A stretch of 64,000 nucleotides of DNA from a virus. Position numbers and translations under genes: made by a program. Positions 1-61,032 of this stretch are shown one piece after another; the first letter of the stretch is position 1, and every line of letters begins with the position of its first letter. Below the pieces are notes generated by a model. That model was given only the letters and a program-made list of their open reading frames with translations. It was not told the DNA's origin and made no database searches. The DNA is taken from IMG/VR virus record IMGVR_UViG_3300025009_000896, positions 1 to 64,000 of that record, one strand, 5' to 3'.

Positions 1-1209
1 ATTTCAGAACTTAACCGATTAGTTGGTGTAACATCTGGAATACAGACACAGATAAACCTTAAGGCTAATATAACATCTCCTACATTCCTTACATCTGTAA
101 TTCTTCCCGCCACTACTTACTTCCCTGCATTGGGAGTGATGAGTTTTAACTCCGGTGACGTTACCTTAACTCATGGGTCTAACCTACTTACCTTAGACGG
201 GGGCGACCTTGCCTTGGGAACAAATAATATCACCCTCACGGGCTCCCTGGGCGCAACCGGGGGCAGAATACTGAAGGGGTGGATGACTAACTTAGAGATT
301 ACCAACCTGCCTACTATAAACGGGGGCACTCTTGCAACTGCACTTGGACTTAATGTGTCTAATTGGAATACGGCATATAGTTGGGTAAGCACCAATGGGG
401 CTAATGCTGTTACCGCATACGGGTGGGGCGACCATGCGGGTCTTTACCTCCCACTTGCAGGTACCGCTGCTGCGGTTACGGGTTTTACCCCCGCATCGGG
501 GTCGTTAACGTTATCGGGGGCAGATGCTATTACCCTTTCAACTACGGCTGTTACAAGCGTTACCCTTCCCACATCGGGAACACTGGCTACAACCCAAAAC
601 ATAAACGATAGCTTAGATGTTTATATGGCTGCCGCCGCTACGGGGGTGGCTTTGGAAGATAGCACAACTGTATATGTTACTCCGACACAGTTAAGCGACA
701 GCCTTGCATTAATCTCATCAGTAACCGGATATGAGCCTGATAGTATCATTGTTAGCACAGGTGATGCTATATTGTATAGTGGGCCAGATACATTAAATCC
801 ATACATACCCTATGCTGACAGGGAGTTAGGGTTAGCCCTTGCCGATTCTACGGGGACAACATCGGGCACCTATGCTACGGGTAGTGACTATTTAAGAGGC
901 ATTTATTCTACCAAAAATACTGGTACGGTGACGGATAACGTTGGTATTACGGCAGCCATGTTACATAGGTTTATATGTTACTCTGAGGCTGCTGCTACGG
1001 ACATTACCGCTGATCCGCAGATAGCCAATGGAACACAAGGACAAATTATAACCATTATAGGATTCTCTGATGCTAACTCTCTTACATTAGATGATGGTGC
1101 AGGGCTACGGCTGTCCGGGCAAATGGTGTTAGGGATTAGTGATAGTATTACATTAATGTATGAGACTACGATAGGGGACTGGATAGAAATTTCGAGGACA
1201 AACAACTGA
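1..1209 (+). CDS. Phage tail fibre protein, 5'-truncated
   Basis: The frame is open from the first base of the window, so the gene begins upstream; the ATG at 130 is internal. The visible N-terminus (NRLVGVTSGIQTQINLKAN) is the trimeric fibre-shaft signature common in phage tail fibres, followed by Gly/Thr/Leu-rich beta repeats of low complexity. The C-terminal ~130 residues are less repetitive and probably form the receptor-binding tip or a trimerisation domain. It ends with TGA two bases before the next ATG, so it is in one transcript with the secreted beta-helix genes that follow. Function is inferred from repeat style only. Confidence 0.75.
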   Translation: MSELNRLVGVTSGIQTQINLKANITSPTFLTSVILPATTYFPALGVMSFNSGDVTLTHGSNLLTLDGGDLALGTNNITLTGSLGATGGRILKGWMTNLEITNLPTINGGTLATALGLNVSNWNTAYSWVSTNGANAVTAYGWGDHAGLYLPLAGTAAAVTGFTPASGSLTLSGADAITLSTTAVTSVTLPTSGTLATTQNINDSLDVYMAAAATGVALEDSTTVYVTPTQLSDSLALISSVTGYEPDSIIVSTGDAILYSGPDTLNPYIPYADRELGLALADSTGTTSGTYATGSDYLRGIYSTKNTGTVTDNVGITAAMLHRFICYSEAAATDITADPQIANGTQGQIITIIGFSDANSLTLDDGAGLRLSGQMVLGISDSITLMYETTIGDWIEISRTNN

Positions 1210-1211
1210 GG

Positions 1212-3527
1212 ATGAAAAATATACTAACCACGCTTTTACTATGTATTTCCCTTGTTGTTGGGGCTGCCACCCGATATGTGGCCACAACGGGAAGTGACGC
1301 AGCGGCAGGAACAATAGATGCACCGTGGGCAACGTGGCAATATGGGTTCAGTCACATAGTGGCAGGTGATACGTTATATATCAGAGGTGGCACCTATCAA
1401 CCCACAGGCACATCGGCAGGAACACCGTTCAGTACCGAGTATTGGGGTGGAGTGGCAATTAGGAACACTGACGGCACGGCCTTGAATAGAATTGTGGTAA
1501 TGAACTATCCGAGTGAAAAGCCCATACTTGATGGAACAAACATAACGGCGGCACAAGGCTCCATTGGTAGCAGATTTGGAATCATAATGCGCAACTGTGA
1601 GTATTGGCACATTAAGGGACTTGAGGTAACGGGGGTGTTGCAATTCCCAACTGAGCTTGGCGTTGGGGGAATAAGGCTCATGGAGGACTGTAACCATAAT
1701 ATTCTTGAACAGATAGTATCTCACGATAACGGGGGTTCTGGAATTACGTTAGTTTATGACTGTACCGATAATCTTATCTTAAATTGTGACAGCTATAATA
1801 ACATAGACCCATATTCAACCCCTACCGCATATAATAATAGCGACGGCATAGAAATAGCCGAGATAGCAGTGGGCATGACAAATACCGTTAGGGGCTGTAG
1901 GATGTGGGGAAACTGTGATGACGGTATGGACTTGTTTGATAACGAGGGCATTGTGGTCATTGATAGTTGTTGGGCATTTTATAATAGTAAGCCCGCAGGC
2001 CCATACGACGCCAACGGCTTTAAGTTGGGAAGAACCAACAATACACATGGAACCGTACGAAGGGTTATTACTAACTCGATAGCGGTAGGCAATCAGGCTG
2101 ATGGGTTTACCACCGGGGGTGATGCTTATTGTGATATGGATATGTTTAACAATACAGCAATAGCTAATAAGTATGGGTTTATGTTTTATTTAACAACCCC
2201 TGCCGACTGTGGTACCATTACAGTTAGAAATAACATAGGATATAATAATGTTGACAACTTCAGGCATAAGTATGCCCCGATGGTTGTTGACCACAATAGT
2301 TACGATAGCGACTTTCAGACCGATGGGCCCGGGATATCTGCTGCCGACTTTGTTACCGTAGATACTCTTGGATTAAGATACTCAAGAAAGTCCGGTGGAT
2401 ACCTGCCGGACATTTCCTTCGCAACATTGGATGCTACATCCGACATGATAAATGCTGGAGTAGACGTGGGGATAGCCTACGACAGTGATGCACCCGACCT
2501 TGGCTATATAGAATATGTGTCAGAGGCACCGCCTGCATCTCCCCTTGTTTCAACAACCACGCCATATAATGTAAGCATAAGAAATGGCACAGGAGGGGGA
2601 ACTGTCACCTATGACGGAGGGGGAAGTATAACAGACAGGGGGATTTGTTGGAGTACTTCTGCTGATCCCGAAACAACCGATAATAGCATAAGTAGTGGGA
2701 CGGGATTGGGATCGTTTACCGCAGCCATAACCGGATTAGCAGCCAATACCACGTATCACATAAGAGCCTTTGCTACCAATGAAGTGGCAACATCTTATGG
2801 TGCAGATGTGGAGTTTACAACGCCTGTATCTGCAAGCTACCGATCAGTTGGAGGTAAGATTTTGTTTATCGGACATAAAGTTTCGAGTAATGTGGCGAGG
2901 ATACCCGTTTTTCCACAGATACTTACGGGTACAACGGATGGATATGTTACCAATGTGGGAAGCGTAGCCGTTACAATGCCCACGGGGGTTGCGGCAGGGG
3001 ACTTGATACTGGTCTTTATTGGCAACAGATATGGCTCAGTATTAGCAGTCAACACGGGGGTGAGTGGAAACAACTGGAATATAGAACATCAGACCGTTGC
3101 AACGGACAATCCTACGGCTGCTATAATATGGAAGATAGCCGAGGCATCTAACGCACTAACGCTTACTATTACCCCAAACGGAAACTGCAACTATGTAGCA
3201 TATAGAATATCAGATTTTAACGCCGCAGACCCACTAACCGTTACGGCAGGAGAGATAACCGTAGCGACCAATTTTGACCCTCCGGCTAATCAGGGCGCAT
3301 ACGGAACCCTTAAATATCTATGGATGGGCTGTGCCTATTCTGCTAACGCCTCAGCAACAGTAGCCCCCACTGACTTTGGTGATCTATACGTCAATGACTA
3401 TAATGGTGACAGTCAAAGTGTGGCATGGAGGGAGTACGAATATGGTAGCAGTTATGATCCGGGGGCGTTTACGTCACCCGGGGGAACGTACATTGCTCTC
3501 ACCTGTATAATTAACCCTATCGAATGA
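1212..3527 (+). CDS. Secreted right-handed beta-helix protein (pectate-lyase-like) with Fn3 domain
   Basis: 771 residues. Residues 1-20 look like a Sec signal peptide (charged start, LTTLLLCISLVVGAA). A DUF1565-type opening follows (RYVATTGSD... DTLYIRGGTY, about residues 21-65), then a long parallel beta-helix with many N-N turns (to about 430), a fibronectin type III domain (about 445-545, ending in an FTTP-like strand), and a C-terminal beta-sandwich domain (about 545-771). The fold suits a polysaccharide-binding or -cleaving tailspike, but a signal peptide is unexpected for a virion protein assembled in the cytoplasm. It overlaps the next gene by 4 bases (ATGA). Catalytic residues cannot be assigned by eye. 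Confidence 0.7.
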   Translation: MKNILTTLLLCISLVVGAATRYVATTGSDAAAGTIDAPWATWQYGFSHIVAGDTLYIRGGTYQPTGTSAGTPFSTEYWGGVAIRNTDGTALNRIVVMNYPSEKPILDGTNITAAQGSIGSRFGIIMRNCEYWHIKGLEVTGVLQFPTELGVGGIRLMEDCNHNILEQIVSHDNGGSGITLVYDCTDNLILNCDSYNNIDPYSTPTAYNNSDGIEIAEIAVGMTNTVRGCRMWGNCDDGMDLFDNEGIVVIDSCWAFYNSKPAGPYDANGFKLGRTNNTHGTVRRVITNSIAVGNQADGFTTGGDAYCDMDMFNNTAIANKYGFMFYLTTPADCGTITVRNNIGYNNVDNFRHKYAPMVVDHNSYDSDFQTDGPGISAADFVTVDTLGLRYSRKSGGYLPDISFATLDATSDMINAGVDVGIAYDSDAPDLGYIEYVSEAPPASPLVSTTTPYNVSIRNGTGGGTVTYDGGGSITDRGICWSTSADPETTDNSISSGTGLGSFTAAITGLAANTTYHIRAFATNEVATSYGADVEFTTPVSASYRSVGGKILFIGHKVSSNVARIPVFPQILTGTTDGYVTNVGSVAVTMPTGVAAGDLILVFIGNRYGSVLAVNTGVSGNNWNIEHQTVATDNPTAAIIWKIAEASNALTLTITPNGNCNYVAYRISDFNAADPLTVTAGEITVATNFDPPANQGAYGTLKYLWMGCAYSANASATVAPTDFGDLYVNDYNGDSQSVAWREYEYGSSYDPGAFTSPGGTYIALTCIINPIE

Positions 3528-5938
3528 AGAAGCTAATTACTATACTATTATTTATGTCCCTTGGATTTGCCGTAGCAGCACAGGCGGTGGTTACAATCGA
3601 GGGGAAGGACACCACCATAACCGGAGCCGGGGGCTATGCTATTACACGAACGTCGGCTATACTCCTTAGGTTCTTAAATAACATAGTCCTATACACCTAC
3701 ACAGAAGACCCTATAGTTAACTGTGGAACGAACGACTACACCATAGGGCAATCCACAAACCTAAACGATGCCGTTATTAAGGGCAATAGGGTTACGTGGA
3801 CATCTGCAACTGAGACGGGAAGCACGCATGGTCTGATGGCGGGGTATAACACTGGCTATGATATTGCATACAACTATATTGACTCAACTCAGTATGGAGT
3901 GACACACGAAGGTGGATATCCCAACCACACGTCAATGGACAACTCCACGGGAGGTATCTATTACAACATATTTAAAAACAATAACTTCAGCGTCATTGAA
4001 AAGGGGTATGCAGGTACACGTATTTATAATAACACCTTCTACACCAATAAGAACGAGTTTTCAACGTTTATAGGGATTAAGGAGTCAGATACAGGGGGTA
4101 TAACAGAACCATATCCGGTAACCAGTGGCACTAAAGTCTTTAACAACATCTTCTATAATGATGGCACAACTGCATTTCACGCCATATCAGTGGGCGAAGC
4201 CACAGACGACACCCCAGAGGAGATGGATACGGTTGGGCTTGAAATTGATTACAACATTTATTTTTATGAAAATAGCGCTAATAACGAGCCAACCTTCGAG
4301 TTTAACGGAGACAGTAAGACGTGGACGGAATGGAGGGCGTTAGGCTATGACGAACACTCTGTTATACTTGATCCTCAGTTTGTAGACTTCATAGACCTTG
4401 TTCCTGCATCCAAAGACCTAATTGATATAGGCACTAACTTGGGCACTGAGTTTGATGATGGTCTTTCGACTACAGCAACGTGGGTTGCAGGCGTTACCCC
4501 TACGACTGAAGTTCAGGGTGACTTATGGCAAGTGGGGGCAAGGGTATATGAAACAGACGTAATATACTCAGCAACCTATTATGTGTCAACCACGGGGAGC
4601 GACGATAACCCCGGCACCTACGCACTACCATGGGCTACTTGGGGCGAGGCATTCAACTCTGCCTCGGTACAACCCGGAGATACCGTTTACTTCAGGGGCG
4701 GTGTTTACTCAATGACATCCGATAACCTTGCCTATCCTTATAGTGAAGGATCGGGGTATAACGTAGGTCGTGACGGCACAATAGGGGACACCATAAGGTA
4801 TTGGGCCTACCCGGGCGAAACACCTATATTAGACTGTGACAACATTAGCTTAGCAAGTGGGTCTAATAGGGGCATTAACGGTAACGATATAAACTATGTT
4901 CACTTTAAAGGACTAACGGTTAGGAACGTTAATCAATCTGCGGCAGGGAATAGCACCTATGGGTGGATAATAAACGGGGACAACTTAAAGGTTGAAAACT
5001 GTGAGGTATATAATACCGGAGGTAGGGGGTTTTACTCTACGGGTCATGAGGTATATTACCTAAACTGTGACTCACATCATAACTGCGACTCACTCACAGC
5101 GGCACTCCCGGGTAATGATGGTGTGGGATTTCAGAACACCGACCTTACAAATGCTGATGGCAGTATTTACTATTGGAATTGCAGGGCATGGATGAATGGT
5201 GACCAAGGCTTTTCTGCTGTTTCAATAGGCTACTTAGAGTTTGACGGATGTTGGTCGTTTAATAATGGACTTTATCAGGGTGAGGGACATGGGTTTAAAA
5301 TGGGTGCTGTAGGGCTTGAGGGTGAACAGCCTGAGTTTGGCCCGCTGAAGAGAAAGTATACAAACAACGTTGCCGCATTCAATAGGGCTAATGGATGGAC
5401 AACCAACGACAACACAAGCTATCTGGCCAGAACCATGTATGTCTATAACAACATTGCTTACCACAATGGCTACCCTACGGGATGGGGAGGATTGGCTGCG
5501 GGGTTTGTTATTTACAATACGGCTTCGATTGATGCCGAAGAGTTAGACCGCACCTACCACAATAACATTGCCTACGGCAACGAAGATGGCGACACCTTTA
5601 TTCCCGCCGGGGCTTTATATACCCACTCCAACAACTCATGGGACTTAAGCGTAACCGTTTCTGACGCTGACTTTGTGTCAGTGGACAGTACGGGAATAAC
5701 AGCAGCAAGACAAGCAGATGGGTCACTCCCTGCTAATGATTGTTTTACTGACTTTCTGCAATTAGCTACTGGTAGCGAGCTAATTGACGTTGGGGTTAAC
5801 GTTTCTATACCCTACAACGGCGTAGCCCCCGACCTTGGCCCGTTCGAGACTACTGATGCAGGCACCCCAACAAGCATAACGCCATTAAAATATGGCAATA
5901 AGTTCCTAAAAAGTGGAGAAATATTCTTAAAGAGATGA
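3524..5938 (+). CDS. Secreted double beta-helix protein (pectate-lyase-like)
   Basis: 804 residues with a signal peptide (MKKLITILLFMSLGFAVAAQ; the AAQ end fits Bacteroidota signal peptidase I sites). There are two beta-helix segments: about residues 20-330 and about 345-780. The second opens with the same strand pattern as the upstream paralogue (YYVSTTGSDD... DTVYFRGGVYS), so the two genes share a domain by duplication. The C-terminus ends in a short basic tail. Start overlaps the stop of the preceding gene, and the stop overlaps the start of the T9SS-domain gene, so all three are translationally coupled. Polysaccharide degradation or binding outside the cell is inferred. Confidence 0.68.
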   Translation: MKKLITILLFMSLGFAVAAQAVVTIEGKDTTITGAGGYAITRTSAILLRFLNNIVLYTYTEDPIVNCGTNDYTIGQSTNLNDAVIKGNRVTWTSATETGSTHGLMAGYNTGYDIAYNYIDSTQYGVTHEGGYPNHTSMDNSTGGIYYNIFKNNNFSVIEKGYAGTRIYNNTFYTNKNEFSTFIGIKESDTGGITEPYPVTSGTKVFNNIFYNDGTTAFHAISVGEATDDTPEEMDTVGLEIDYNIYFYENSANNEPTFEFNGDSKTWTEWRALGYDEHSVILDPQFVDFIDLVPASKDLIDIGTNLGTEFDDGLSTTATWVAGVTPTTEVQGDLWQVGARVYETDVIYSATYYVSTTGSDDNPGTYALPWATWGEAFNSASVQPGDTVYFRGGVYSMTSDNLAYPYSEGSGYNVGRDGTIGDTIRYWAYPGETPILDCDNISLASGSNRGINGNDINYVHFKGLTVRNVNQSAAGNSTYGWIINGDNLKVENCEVYNTGGRGFYSTGHEVYYLNCDSHHNCDSLTAALPGNDGVGFQNTDLTNADGSIYYWNCRAWMNGDQGFSAVSIGYLEFDGCWSFNNGLYQGEGHGFKMGAVGLEGEQPEFGPLKRKYTNNVAAFNRANGWTTNDNTSYLARTMYVYNNIAYHNGYPTGWGGLAAGFVIYNTASIDAEELDRTYHNNIAYGNEDGDTFIPAGALYTHSNNSWDLSVTVSDADFVSVDSTGITAARQADGSLPANDCFTDFLQLATGSELIDVGVNVSIPYNGVAPDLGPFETTDAGTPTSITPLKYGNKFLKSGEIFLKR

Positions 5939-6213
5939 GAAAACACTGGATGTTGATAGTATCATTTTTCTGTTTAAGTTTGTTGGTTTGGTCACAAAAG
6001 ATTAACTATGACAGAATAGTCATGTATCCTAACCCATGCCATGACTACCTAAATGTCAAGTCTGACACACTTTTACCCGCTATCCTTGAAATTTATACCT
6101 TTGAGGGAAAGTTAGTAATGATAAAAAAGATAGAAGAGGGACAGATGGAAGTGAGAATTGATGTTACTACCTTAAAGCCGGGATCATATATAATAACATT
6201 TAAAAATAAATAA
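5935..6213 (+). CDS. Small secreted protein consisting of a T9SS type A sorting domain
   Basis: 92 residues: a signal peptide (MRKHWMLIVSFFCLSLLVWSQ) followed directly by a complete type IX secretion C-terminal sorting domain. The diagnostic features are visible: MYPNPCHDYLNV near residue 30, LEIYTFEGKLV in the middle, IDVTTLKPGSYIITF at the end. In known T9SS cargo this ~70-residue domain sits at the C-terminus of a large enzyme; here it stands alone, overlapping by 4 bases the stop of a secreted beta-helix gene. It could be a detached sorting domain of that gene, or a decoy for the host secretion machine. The domain call is strong; the role is open. Confidence 0.8.
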   Translation: MRKHWMLIVSFFCLSLLVWSQKINYDRIVMYPNPCHDYLNVKSDTLLPAILEIYTFEGKLVMIKKIEEGQMEVRIDVTTLKPGSYIITFKNK

Positions 6214-6215
6214 TA

Positions 6216-6599
6216 ATGGAACACTACTCACTTTTACTTGGATACATCCCCGCTACGATGTTTATCGCAATGGTATTATTCGCAGCGATTGGGGTTAGCA
6301 TTAGGCTACTGATTGATGCTGTTGGCAGGAACCAAAACTCCCCTGCTACTCCTTATAAGTTTTCCATTCTATTTCTGCTTAGGGATAACTGGAAGACCAT
6401 TCTCCTGACCTTCATTGCAATACTTGTTGTGCTGAGGTTTGCAGCTTCAATCTTTGATGAGCAGTTTACTGCCGAAAACTTAGACCTGCCCGCCACGAAG
6501 GAGAAGTGGCTGTTTGGTAGCCTTATGGTAGGCATAGCCTTCAACCACGTAATTCAGATATTAAAAGAAAAGTCTGACTTGCTGAAGGTTAAAAGATGA
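6216..6599 (+). CDS. Three-helix membrane protein, holin candidate
   Basis: 127 residues with hydrophobic segments at about 8-33, 57-77 and 98-115 and short charged loops; the C-terminus is basic (LLKVKR). Size, topology and position ahead of further small membrane proteins and a DUF5675 protein suit a phage holin, but no family signature is recognised. It overlaps the next gene by 4 bases. Confidence 0.5.
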   Translation: MEHYSLLLGYIPATMFIAMVLFAAIGVSIRLLIDAVGRNQNSPATPYKFSILFLLRDNWKTILLTFIAILVVLRFAASIFDEQFTAENLDLPATKEKWLFGSLMVGIAFNHVIQILKEKSDLLKVKR

Positions 6600-6976
6600 A
6601 GGGTCTCTTTAAATACATGGGGTACTTTCTCTCTGCCTGTGCAGTAGTGACTGTTATATTTACGTGGGGCGTAAACCATGAACGTAAAGTAGTAAAAGAC
6701 ACATCTGTTTCTAATAAGGTAGACAGGCTAATCGAGTCCGACTCTCTCCGTAATGTTCAGATGATATACTTTCAGGCGTCGGTAATGGATAGTATATCAC
6801 ACATATCCCACCAACTAAGGAGACAGAAAGATGAGTTTCAAAAGACAAAGGTATCCTTAGACAACCTGAGAATTTATATGATAAACAATGCTGCCACTAA
6901 AGAGGATATGGTGGAGGTGTTAAACATCTGGGACATAAAAAAAAACTTGAATTTCAACGGGACAGCATTAAGGTAG
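6596..6976 (+). CDS. Membrane-anchored coiled-coil protein
   Basis: 126 residues. One N-terminal membrane segment (about 6-26) precedes a mostly helical, charged region with heptad spacing (about 40-105). This layout resembles inner-membrane spanin-like or lysis accessory proteins, though no cognate lipoprotein partner is obvious. Unknown function; gene reality supported by ATGA coupling to the preceding membrane gene. Confidence 0.5.
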   Translation: MKGLFKYMGYFLSACAVVTVIFTWGVNHERKVVKDTSVSNKVDRLIESDSLRNVQMIYFQASVMDSISHISHQLRRQKDEFQKTKVSLDNLRIYMINNAATKEDMVEVLNIWDIKKNLNFNGTALR

Positions 6977-7662: not shown

Positions 7663-7734
7663 ATGACACTGGTGATAGTCCTTGGGTTGTTAGTACTCGG
7701 GACTTCGCTATTTAAAGAGGATAAGTATGAGTAG
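7663..7734 (+). CDS. 23-residue membrane peptide
   Basis: ATG at 7663 encodes MTLVIVLGLLVLGTSLF followed by a charged tail and TAG. One membrane helix. It overlaps the start of the DUF5675 gene by 8 bases, the coupling seen throughout this block, which argues that it is translated. Confidence 0.45.
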   Translation: MTLVIVLGLLVLGTSLFKEDKYE

Positions 7735-8164
7735 AGAGCTATTGCTTGAGAGAAAGTTTATGAAAGATGCCTACACAATAGGCAAACTTTCCGTTGATGA
7801 CGAGCCGTACTGTGACACCTTAGAGGATAAGGTCAGGGATTTTAATCATGACGGAGACCTCAATGATGAAGGAGAGAAGAAGGTATATGGTGAAACAGCC
7901 ATACCCTTTGGCAGGTATCGCATAACGGTAACATACAGCCCTAAGTTTAAGCGCAAGGTGCCACTATTGATGAGCGTGCCTCACTTTGAGGGCATAAGGA
8001 TTCATGCTGCAAATTGGCCCACTCAGTTAAGCGGGTGCATAGCTGTAGGAGAAAACAAGGTCAAGGGAGGGTTGATTAACAGCCGTCAATATGAGAGAGA
8101 ACTAACGGGGTGGTTGGATATGTGGCAGTCTGCCGGAGAAGATTTATTCATAACAATTATTTGA
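7727..8164 (+). CDS. DUF5675 family protein (lysis-region)
   Basis: 145 residues matching the DUF5675 pattern: a short beta N-terminus, YGETAIPFGRYRITV about residues 60-75, VPHFEGIRIHAANW about 87-100 and SGCIAVGENKV about 104-115. The His and Cys in the last two blocks resemble the H...SxGC arrangement of L,D-transpeptidase-like folds, so peptidoglycan processing is a reasonable inference. It lies between small membrane genes in a lysis-like cluster. Confidence 0.7.
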   Translation: MSRELLLERKFMKDAYTIGKLSVDDEPYCDTLEDKVRDFNHDGDLNDEGEKKVYGETAIPFGRYRITVTYSPKFKRKVPLLMSVPHFEGIRIHAANWPTQLSGCIAVGENKVKGGLINSRQYERELTGWLDMWQSAGEDLFITII

Positions 8165-8165
8165 G

Positions 8166-8855
8166 ATGGAACTAAAGATTAAGAAAGTATATGTTTTTGT
8201 GGCTCTATTAGCCATATTTGCCCTTATCTTTATCGGGGGCAGGATAAGCGTCACCCGGCAGTTAAGAGCGGCTAATGCGGTACTTAGTGCAGCCGAAACG
8301 ACGATTCAACAGTATGAGGTAACTATTGCGGGACAAAAACAGCAGGTTACTGAGTTAAAACAGATAGTAACGGATAAGCAGACAGCCATAGAACTTAACC
8401 TAATAGAGAAGGATAAGTGGAAGAAACTCTACTATAAGACTATTGAGAGTAACACCGAACTAACTGCTCGGGTGTCTATCTTAATAGACTCTATAAAGGC
8501 TATCAAACCCGAGATCATTTACATTACCACTGATCCCGAGGTAGATTCTATTCCCTGTGTGGTTATACCTTATGATTGGGTTTACTCTGACAAGTATGTT
8601 AAGGCCGTTGGTCACGTGGATCGTCAGGCGCAAACTTCTTTGAGTTTAGAGATGCCCGTAGACTTCGATGTAGTAATAGGTAATAAGAAGAAAGGGGGCA
8701 TCCCAACAGTTAGTATATTGGAGGATAACCCCTATCTATATGTTACTAAGATTAAATCGGTAAAGGTCGTAGACAATAAATGGTATCAAAGCCGTTGGGT
8801 GCCCTTTATTGCAGGATTCGGCGGTGCTATGGCTGTGTTTTTTCTGTTGAAGTAA
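8166..8855 (+). CDS. Coiled-coil protein with a membrane helix at each end
   Basis: 229 residues: N-terminal membrane segment (about 8-26), a long coiled-coil (about 30-105), a beta-rich central part and a C-terminal membrane segment (about 208-228, FIAGFGGAMAVFFLL). This envelope-spanning architecture suits a unimolecular-spanin-like or lysis accessory role. Its 3' end overlaps the convergent minus gene by 29 bases, closing the first plus block. Confidence 0.5.
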   Translation: MELKIKKVYVFVALLAIFALIFIGGRISVTRQLRAANAVLSAAETTIQQYEVTIAGQKQQVTELKQIVTDKQTAIELNLIEKDKWKKLYYKTIESNTELTARVSILIDSIKAIKPEIIYITTDPEVDSIPCVVIPYDWVYSDKYVKAVGHVDRQAQTSLSLEMPVDFDVVIGNKKKGGIPTVSILEDNPYLYVTKIKSVKVVDNKWYQSRWVPFIAGFGGAMAVFFLLK

Positions 8856-28124: not shown

Positions 28125-29162
28125 TTAGTGATTAGTAAATTCCCTTAGAAAAGACTCTTTTTGCTCAACAGACCAAGTACAACTATAATTAGTAAGAAGT
28201 TTTAATATTTCATCCAATGGCCTTGTCTTAAGGAAGCGCATCTGATATTCGTTTGGGAATTTTTCCCAATGGAGTGTTTTAAATTGGTTGTCGGACTGAA
28301 TCAAACCATATAAGAAGTCTAAGGTTTTATTATTAAAGTTCCTTAAGTTTTCAGAGATAAATTTATTAACTTCGTCATAGTTTAATATCCTTGTTTCCAT
28401 ACCAATTAGACACTCTCCCAACAAAATTAGCTGCTCGCTTGATATGTTTTTATTATGCTTTGGCAAAGCAAAAAGATAATAGTAATTAGGTGTTCTCCTT
28501 TTAATGCTACTGAGCAACATTTCAAAAACATCGTCTTGTAAAATACAAGGGCTTCTCATTATCAGATCATGTGGCATATTGGTTTTCCCCGCCCCATATT
28601 CAATCCAATATTGCCCTATTCCGAAAATACATCCATTTGTATTATAGTTGGGTTCTCTGACGTACTGTATTACCTCCTCTTTTGTATAATCAAAAGGCAT
28701 TTTAAACGATTCTATAAACAACACGTCCTTTGTACAATCAGACATTATAATTTTGAGTAAATTAACTACAACCTCTTTTTTTGAATAAAAGTTTACTGCT
28801 AAGTGTACGGCAAGGCTACCGTCGTTTCGGTTACAATACCATCCGTTAGCCTCTTTTTCAATATTAAAGATATTTAATAATATCCTTTCAATAAAAAGAA
28901 ACTGATTTTGCTGCTTACTTTTAAAGTATCCTTGGCCGTCATCTTCTGATCGTTTTATTTTAGCAAACTCAGCTCTTAAGTAATCAAGTAGTCCTATTGC
29001 TATTTTTGAGTTGTCTACCTGTTTTTTTAGAATAGACATTTCCTTATATTGTTCCGAGTTTATGTTTAGAGCGTCTATTAGCTCTCTTTCTAATGATCCA
29101 ATTTTTTCTGCAATTTGCTTAGACGCAAATTCGTTTAAATCAATTTCTAATAAATTATCCAT
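28125..29162 (-). CDS. Hypothetical protein, 345 residues
   Basis: N-terminal coiled-coil (about 1-55), then an alpha/beta region with FGIGQYWIEYGAGKTNMPHD, and a helical C-terminus (ILKLLTNYSCTW). I do not recognise the family. It is more AT-rich than its neighbours and rich in Ile, Asn and Lys, which may mean recent acquisition. Confidence 0.5.
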   Translation of the reverse strand: MDNLLEIDLNEFASKQIAEKIGSLERELIDALNINSEQYKEMSILKKQVDNSKIAIGLLDYLRAEFAKIKRSEDDGQGYFKSKQQNQFLFIERILLNIFNIEKEANGWYCNRNDGSLAVHLAVNFYSKKEVVVNLLKIIMSDCTKDVLFIESFKMPFDYTKEEVIQYVREPNYNTNGCIFGIGQYWIEYGAGKTNMPHDLIMRSPCILQDDVFEMLLSSIKRRTPNYYYLFALPKHNKNISSEQLILLGECLIGMETRILNYDEVNKFISENLRNFNNKTLDFLYGLIQSDNQFKTLHWEKFPNEYQMRFLKTRPLDEILKLLTNYSCTWSVEQKESFLREFTNH

Positions 29163-60648: not shown

Positions 60649-61032
60649 ATGAAATATCTCACAATCTTACTGCTGTTTCTAACGCTGACAACTTCGGCGC
60701 AAATCCCTTATGATAAGAAACTTCACGCCGGAGCAGGGGTATTAATGGGTACGTGGGGAACCTTTGCCGGTAACTCTATGCTTTATAAACCCGAAAGGGC
60801 TGCTTTATTTGGGACGACTTCGGTAGCCGTGGCCGGATTAGGTAAGGAGATTTGGGATGAGGTTGAATACAGAGGGTTTGACGTTAAGGACTTAGGGGCC
60901 ACGATGATCGGTGGATTAATCGGAACGGGGCTAAGTTATGCGGGGCTGAAGATATTTTACCATTATAAGCCAAAAGTCTTTATCGCGACCGTAAACAACA
61001 ATGTAACGGTAGGATTTAGGGTCAAGTTTTAG
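60649..61032 (+). CDS. YfiM-like exported protein
   Basis: 127 residues; signal peptide MKYLTILLLFLTLTTSAQ, then IPYDKKLHAGAGVLMGTWGTFAG, GKEIWDEVEYRGFDVKDLGATMIGG, resembling the YfiM/DUF2279 family of envelope proteins. Glycine-rich hydrophobic helices suggest outer-membrane association. An exported gene between portal and scaffold is odd and may alter the host surface. Confidence 0.6.
   Translation: MKYLTILLLFLTLTTSAQIPYDKKLHAGAGVLMGTWGTFAGNSMLYKPERAALFGTTSVAVAGLGKEIWDEVEYRGFDVKDLGATMIGGLIGTGLSYAGLKIFYHYKPKVFIATVNNNVTVGFRVKF

Follow-up and report, generated by a model that had tools for sequence, protein, structure and literature searches.

What does a phage do with a sorting signal of the type IX secretion system (T9SS) that has no cargo attached to it? 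In many Bacteroidota it is the T9SS that builds the cell surface, and several of their phages need it for infection; the gene at positions 5935-6213 of the window (the 64,000-nucleotide stretch of DNA analysed here, part of an 83,188-base IMG/VR virus record) was originally predicted to encode just such a signal behind a signal peptide. The phage origin of the DNA that this prediction implied is borne out by the terminase and portal genes, which match phage families of the Pachyviridae/Pervagoviridae/Elemovirus kind. By the terminase (22-25% identity) the nearest named relatives are podophages of Bacteroidota from the Pachyviridae (Cellulophaga phi46:3), the Pervagoviridae (phi38:1) and Elemovirus, and four IMG/VR contigs are 38% identical. 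The two ends of the record (window 1-130 and record 83059-83188) share a 130-base overlap of 97.7% identity whose mismatches sit right at its beginning, so the record probably represents a complete, circular genome of about 83.06 kb. The gene is the fourth and last in a row of signal-peptide-bearing genes, of which the first three encode a fibre-like protein of about 476 residues and then two PelN/Pel9A-like beta-helix proteins. The features of this region are the following (CTD, C-terminal domain):

1-1209, plus strand: 3' part of the gene for the signal-peptide-bearing, fibre-like protein of about 476 residues, which starts at record position 82837 and spans the circular junction.
1212-3527, plus strand: 771-residue signal-peptide-bearing Pel9A/PelN-like beta-helix protein without a CTD (PF22842, 84.4 bits).
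3524-5938, plus strand: 804-residue signal-peptide-bearing PelN-like beta-helix protein without a CTD (PelN profile, 1.1e-55, a match below the equivalog cut-off).
5935-6213, plus strand: 92-residue protein made up of a signal peptide and a truncated type A T9SS CTD, by profile matches.
5935-5994, plus strand: signal peptide MRKHWMLIVSFFCLSLLVWS, with a predicted cut before Gln21 (Bacteroidetes Q-rule).
6022-6207, plus strand: CTD strands beta1-beta6, residues 30-91 (PF18962 positions 1-64 of 75).
6216-6599, plus strand: 127-residue membrane protein of no family, the first gene downstream of the CTD gene.
6596-6976, plus strand: 126-residue protein with an N-terminal membrane segment and a coiled coil.
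7727-8164, plus strand: DUF5675 protein of the presumed lysis region (PF18925, 96.8 bits).
8166-8855, plus strand: Rz-like spanin candidate (phrog_214, E 9.4e-4, a weak match).

The limits of the CTD gene are exact (ATG at 5935, TAA at 6211-6213, 92 codons), and it is indeed coupled to the two signal-peptide-bearing beta-helix genes as predicted, its start overlapping the 804-residue gene by 4 bases (ATGA, 5935-5938) and its stop lying 2 bases from the next ATG (6216). Scans for promoters and terminators gave site numbers not above those in shuffled sequences. Further downstream, the Rz-like candidate at 8166-8855 is hydrophobic at both ends (C-terminus WVPFIAGFGGAMAVFFLLK), which is unusual for an i-spanin.

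Profile searches confirmed that the protein carries a type A CTD. PF18962 matched residues 30-91 at 41.5 bits (1.6e-10; curated cut-off 27 bits) and TIGR04183, one of the two profiles that had been proposed as a check, matched at 30.5 bits (2.7e-7; curated cut-off 23 bits). An HMM of our own, made from 63 bacterial CTDs, scored the protein at 52.6 bits, far beyond chance since the best of 5,000 shuffles reached 10.0 bits, and a profile search of the whole 83-kb record found this single CTD. The YPNP of the motif B region lies at residues 31-34 (6025-6036) and motif D (..L..G.Y) is present as LKPGSY at residues 80-85, with GSY at 6181-6189. The other half of the prediction, the signal peptide, also held by our own hydropathy-based heuristic: the N-terminus, MRKHWMLIVSFFCLSLLVWS followed by QKIN, is a leader of the signal peptidase I type with Gln at +1, as in the Q-rule of Bacteroidetes (PMC5837995, PMC10653852). 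A lipoprotein was ruled out, as the predicted cleavage site has no Cys. There is no passenger, only nine residues separating the predicted cleavage site from the CTD, and the GC content of the gene is 32.6%, compared to 37-46% in the neighbouring genes and 45.6% in the gene directly upstream.

The original prediction started from the premise that such a signal is, as a rule, the end of a large cargo protein. The premise was incomplete, and the view that a free-standing CTD is peculiar to this phage is not supported: genes for a signal peptide plus a full CTD, standing alone, are ordinary in the hosts. One such gene in a Flavobacterium subsaxonicum genome encodes 111 residues (L145:1885-2217, minus strand; 60.8 bits with PF18962), and its family, defined by similarity over most of the length with open frames of up to 175 residues, was represented, among the matches listed, in no fewer than 50 of the 121 genomes of the bacterial family to which F. 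subsaxonicum belongs, often as tandem pairs (relatives L162-L165). The second family, of 116 residues (L148:2916-3263; 43.4 bits), occurred in 3 of 247 genomes. In a tree the phage CTD fell outside these stand-alone families. A free-standing signal peptide plus CTD is a conserved kind of host gene, and raises the question of what a cargo-less tag does in bacteria.

We also considered whether the CTD is the tail of the upstream gene, recently split off, an outcome for which the original prediction had allowed. Bacterial homologues of the 804-residue beta-helix protein were found in 29 of 346 genomes, and among 20 homologues examined 15 carry a fused CTD, three carry none and two are cut by the end of the locus. 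These fused CTDs are largely of the YPNPFNP subtype and form a separate clade (support 100/99). The median score of the phage CTD was 5.8 bits with 11 of these beta-helix CTDs and 21.5 bits with 63 Bacteroidia-type CTDs, the latter value calling for caution as that set was fetched with an alignment containing the phage sequence. On the basis of the different subtype, the lower GC content and the signal peptide of its own, a split-off tail was ruled out.

The phage CTD itself is incomplete. The profile match stops at position 64 of 75 in PF18962 and at 60 of 72 in TIGR04183, strand beta7 and motif E with the conserved lysine are absent, and the terminal Lys92 comes straight after beta6. Seven residues follow the GxY of the phage CTD, whereas all 70 bacterial CTDs compared have 14-33 there and 13 of the 14 viral CTDs have 14-19, the exception (L022) having nine; all 28 scored bacterial best hits (30 loci were taken) reach 8-17 residues past the phage C-terminus, with a median of 14. 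We ruled out that motif E is concealed by a frameshift or by faulty assembly, as the other downstream frames encode none. The AlphaFold model of the phage protein contains beta1-beta6 and no beta7 (mean pLDDT 79), that is, six predicted CTD strands instead of a seven-stranded Ig-like sandwich, with a further, low-confidence strand placed over four leader residues, whereas a bacterial stand-alone CTD, modelled in the same way from practically the same alignment, was given seven strands (pLDDT 85). Foldseek searches of the PDB with the phage model returned CTDs of T9SS substrates from structures of the SprA-PorV translocon (8glk_D, 8gl8_D and 8gl6_D; 31% identity and a TM of 0.61 by target for 8glk_D), matches that support the fold only because all E-values lie above 0.03. 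The viral exception, a 309-residue CTD protein of a 345-kb contig (L022:5251-6180), also has no motif E and covers profile positions 1-64 of 75.

The missing piece has been studied in complete CTDs. Export was blocked when RgpB lost two C-terminal residues, when PPAD lost four, and when the last six residues of PorU were replaced (PMC11285876); the last 13 residues and the motif E lysines of the CTD are required (PMC10202324), the near-invariant lysine touches PorV (PMC10994853), and beta7, the last strand, is the one exchanged between isolated CTDs (PMC4804311). On the basis of these mutants and the missing beta7, the 92-residue protein probably cannot serve as an export signal on its own, with the proviso that the requirements were measured in Porphyromonas and Flavobacterium and that the host of this phage, whichever it is, may tolerate a short C-terminus. 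That the phage encodes a complete sorting signal, as originally predicted, is therefore doubtful. Since the last piece of the tag is missing, the protein probably does something other than simple tagging, and we consider it a good deal likelier than otherwise that it is a derived CTD which is exported but does not work as a tag on its own.

We hypothesize, with a probability of about 0.4 and from sequence evidence, that the gene encodes a captured, Sec-exported CTD without beta7 that acts in the envelope, where it may be a decoy for the T9SS. The phage would have taken up a host-type type A CTD with its own signal peptide, and the captured CTD would sit in a late operon joining fibre/depolymerase genes to lysis genes. 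Sec export and cleavage by signal peptidase I before Gln21 would release a periplasmic protein of about 72 residues, predicted to fold as beta1-beta6 of the Ig-like CTD, and without beta7 and the near-invariant lysine it would, judging from the published CTD mutants, lack a competent export signal and stay in the periplasm. Such a free binding module of the envelope might meet T9SS partners while remaining unexported, and thus serve as a decoy; alternatively, as isolated CTDs swap exactly beta7, it might be a strand acceptor into which host cargo inserts its own beta7. Decoy or acceptor could lower the amount of surface cargo, for instance of gliding adhesins needed for phage infection, and less surface cargo could limit re-adsorption of progeny. 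Mutants in the T9SS or in gliding are phage-resistant (PMC9233685, PMC13288928), so that a lower T9SS output could spare progeny from debris or already infected cells. The protein may thus block the host T9SS, as had been proposed originally. Taken by itself, a T9SS-directed role as decoy or acceptor is doubtful. A faulty CTD need not jam the T9SS, since an RgpB CTD loop mutant was periplasmic and Kgp activity was not lowered (PMC11285876), and the lysis-type neighbours suggest late expression of the CTD gene, late for receptor shut-off, which argues against a decoy.

Gene decay and a function in the virion are both rivals to be taken seriously. When viral contigs were scanned with the 92-residue protein, no direct relatives came up in collections that may omit very near ones, and direct relatives were likewise absent, within the same limit, from scans with the downstream neighbour, the portal and the capsid protein. 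The CTD is absent from the twelve nearest phage records and from three further Cellulophaga phages, and the search for the same gene in related phages that the original prediction had suggested thus came back empty among those searched. With no homologue found in related phages, the gene could be a decaying insert, a host mini-cargo gene or CTD that was captured recently, shed its final strand and is without function. The low GC content (32.6% versus 37-46% in the neighbours), the missing beta7, the lack of a copy in all related phages searched and the abundance of stand-alone source genes in hosts all fit decay. By contrast, the signal peptide with Gln at +1, motif B and motif D are all intact, and the start and stop of the gene fit both neighbours (overlap and 2-base spacing), which suggests a maintained operon gene and makes decay unlikely in our view.

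The virion alternative draws on the leaders of the neighbouring genes, as phages of Bacteroidota characteristically carry signal peptides on their fibre/pectate-lyase genes. Genes gp079-083 of phi46:3 and gp091-095 of phi10:1 have signal-peptide-like starts ending before Gln, and phi10:1 gp091-094 are annotated as virion proteins by MS/MS; the 38% relative G001 bears the same kind of leader on three genes (at 28396, 47743 and 51736; L157, L158), two of them fibre-like and one next to the capsid gene. Q-rule genes of unknown function were noted earlier in P. gingivalis phages (PMC10367356). Because the leader-bearing phi10:1 proteins are in virions, leaders on fibre genes alone do not mean display on the host surface, and the surface display of the beta-helix proteins that had been proposed originally is weakened by the MS/MS evidence placing leader-bearing fibre/pectate-lyase proteins of related phages in virions. 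If the 92-residue protein belonged there too, it would be an accessory to adsorption, a structural or assembly factor of fibre or spike, used as an ordinary Ig-like module and unconnected with the T9SS. Its gene comes after three consecutive signal-peptide-bearing fibre/beta-helix genes, leaders like that of this protein occur on the phi10:1 virion proteins, and the truncated CTD keeps an Ig-like fold in the model. However, the sequence is clearly of the CTD type, YPNP and GxY included, and the fibre operons of phi46:3 and phi10:1 contain no comparable small CTD protein, so that we hold a virion role to be rather unlikely.

Two observations on these leaders stand apart from the question of the CTD. 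Runs of tail-fibre/pectate-lyase genes with Gln+1 Sec leaders are seen in the window at 1-5938 together with record 82837-83188, at L013:30343-38945 and at L152:1005-8036. A small signal-peptide-bearing gene adjoins the capsid gene both in the window (60649-61032) and in G001 (28396-28875; L157). The route by which exported proteins would reach the virion may merit separate study.

The protein could also be a working T9SS mini-cargo, secreted or surface-bound in a host for which the short C-terminus is enough. Its architecture matches the stand-alone signal peptide plus CTD genes of hosts, and the CTD of L022 (309 residues) stops at profile position 64 as well; on the other hand, every one of the 28 bacterial best hits runs further, as do the CTDs of 13 of the 14 other viral contigs, and the published truncations of 2-4 residues block export, which leaves this reading improbable. 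Least probable by far is a sorting signal split in trans, in which the 92-residue protein would give beta1-beta6 and a second chain beta7, be it a host cargo, whose T9SS export signal the phage protein would trap, or the 804-residue beta-helix protein, which would become T9SS cargo by strand complementation: the C-terminus of the latter (NKFLKSGEIFLKR) bears a faint likeness to motif E, but a motif-E score places its final ten residues 16th among the ends of 268 phage ORFs and below the 5% point of real motif-E tails, so this is a weak hint.

Phage-encoded T9SS cargo is already published, in Cryophage (PMC7468147) and in cluster 2 of crAss-BACON (PMC6949934), and we found CTD-bearing proteins in 14 IMG/VR contigs and in two phages of 635-642 kb. 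A position of phage CTDs in late adsorption/lysis operons recurs, L023 and L028 being those with clear flanks: at L023:3721-8756 the gene for an 836-residue T9SS cargo is followed in turn by two genes with leaders, by an M15 endolysin and by a holin with three transmembrane segments, and in L028 a CTD cargo has tail tape-measure genes on one side and a protein of 1,239 residues with a leader on the other. The 635-642-kb metagenomic phages encode proteins of 186-199 residues made up of a leader, a small beta domain and a CTD (L002:5662-6261, L003:5743-6303), and one of the two also encodes a leader plus CTD-like protein of about 117 residues without PNP (L011:1270-1680), whose score lies slightly under the profile cut-off. 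A phage protein consisting solely of a clipped T9SS signal readily suggests itself as a candidate T9SS inhibitor of phage origin, of which we found no report in the literature searched. The gene is a real and well-defined oddity, and its missing part is more interesting than the fact that it stands alone.

Compared to known systems, the phage protein shares with the type A CTD of the T9SS (PF18962/TIGR04183) the profile match, YPNP, GxY, a leader in front and a predicted Ig-like fold, and differs from it in having no passenger, no beta7 or motif E lysine, and in being phage-encoded. The small Ig-like beta-sandwiches of the DUF3244 proteins of Bacteroides (3sd2, 3d33 and 4g5a) are its best fold matches, with TM values of 0.50-0.61, but this is a resemblance of fold only (Foldseek E 0.04-0.05) as the phage protein has no Pfam sequence match to them. 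The stand-alone bacterial genes (L145, L148) have in common with it a leader, a short linker, a CTD and nothing else, but they encode about 105-120 residues with a complete C-terminal strand and often occur in tandem pairs, whereas the phage gene encodes 92 residues with an incomplete CTD and thus falls outside their kind. The T9SS cargo proteins of phages (Cryophage, crAss-BACON cluster 2, L020-L033, L002 and L003) likewise place a CTD on a phage of Bacteroidota; those whose start is included have 186-836 residues, the CTD ends a passenger and nearly all have motif E. Of these, L023 has several consecutive signal-peptide genes immediately ahead of its endolysin and holin genes, similar to the setting of the gene described here.
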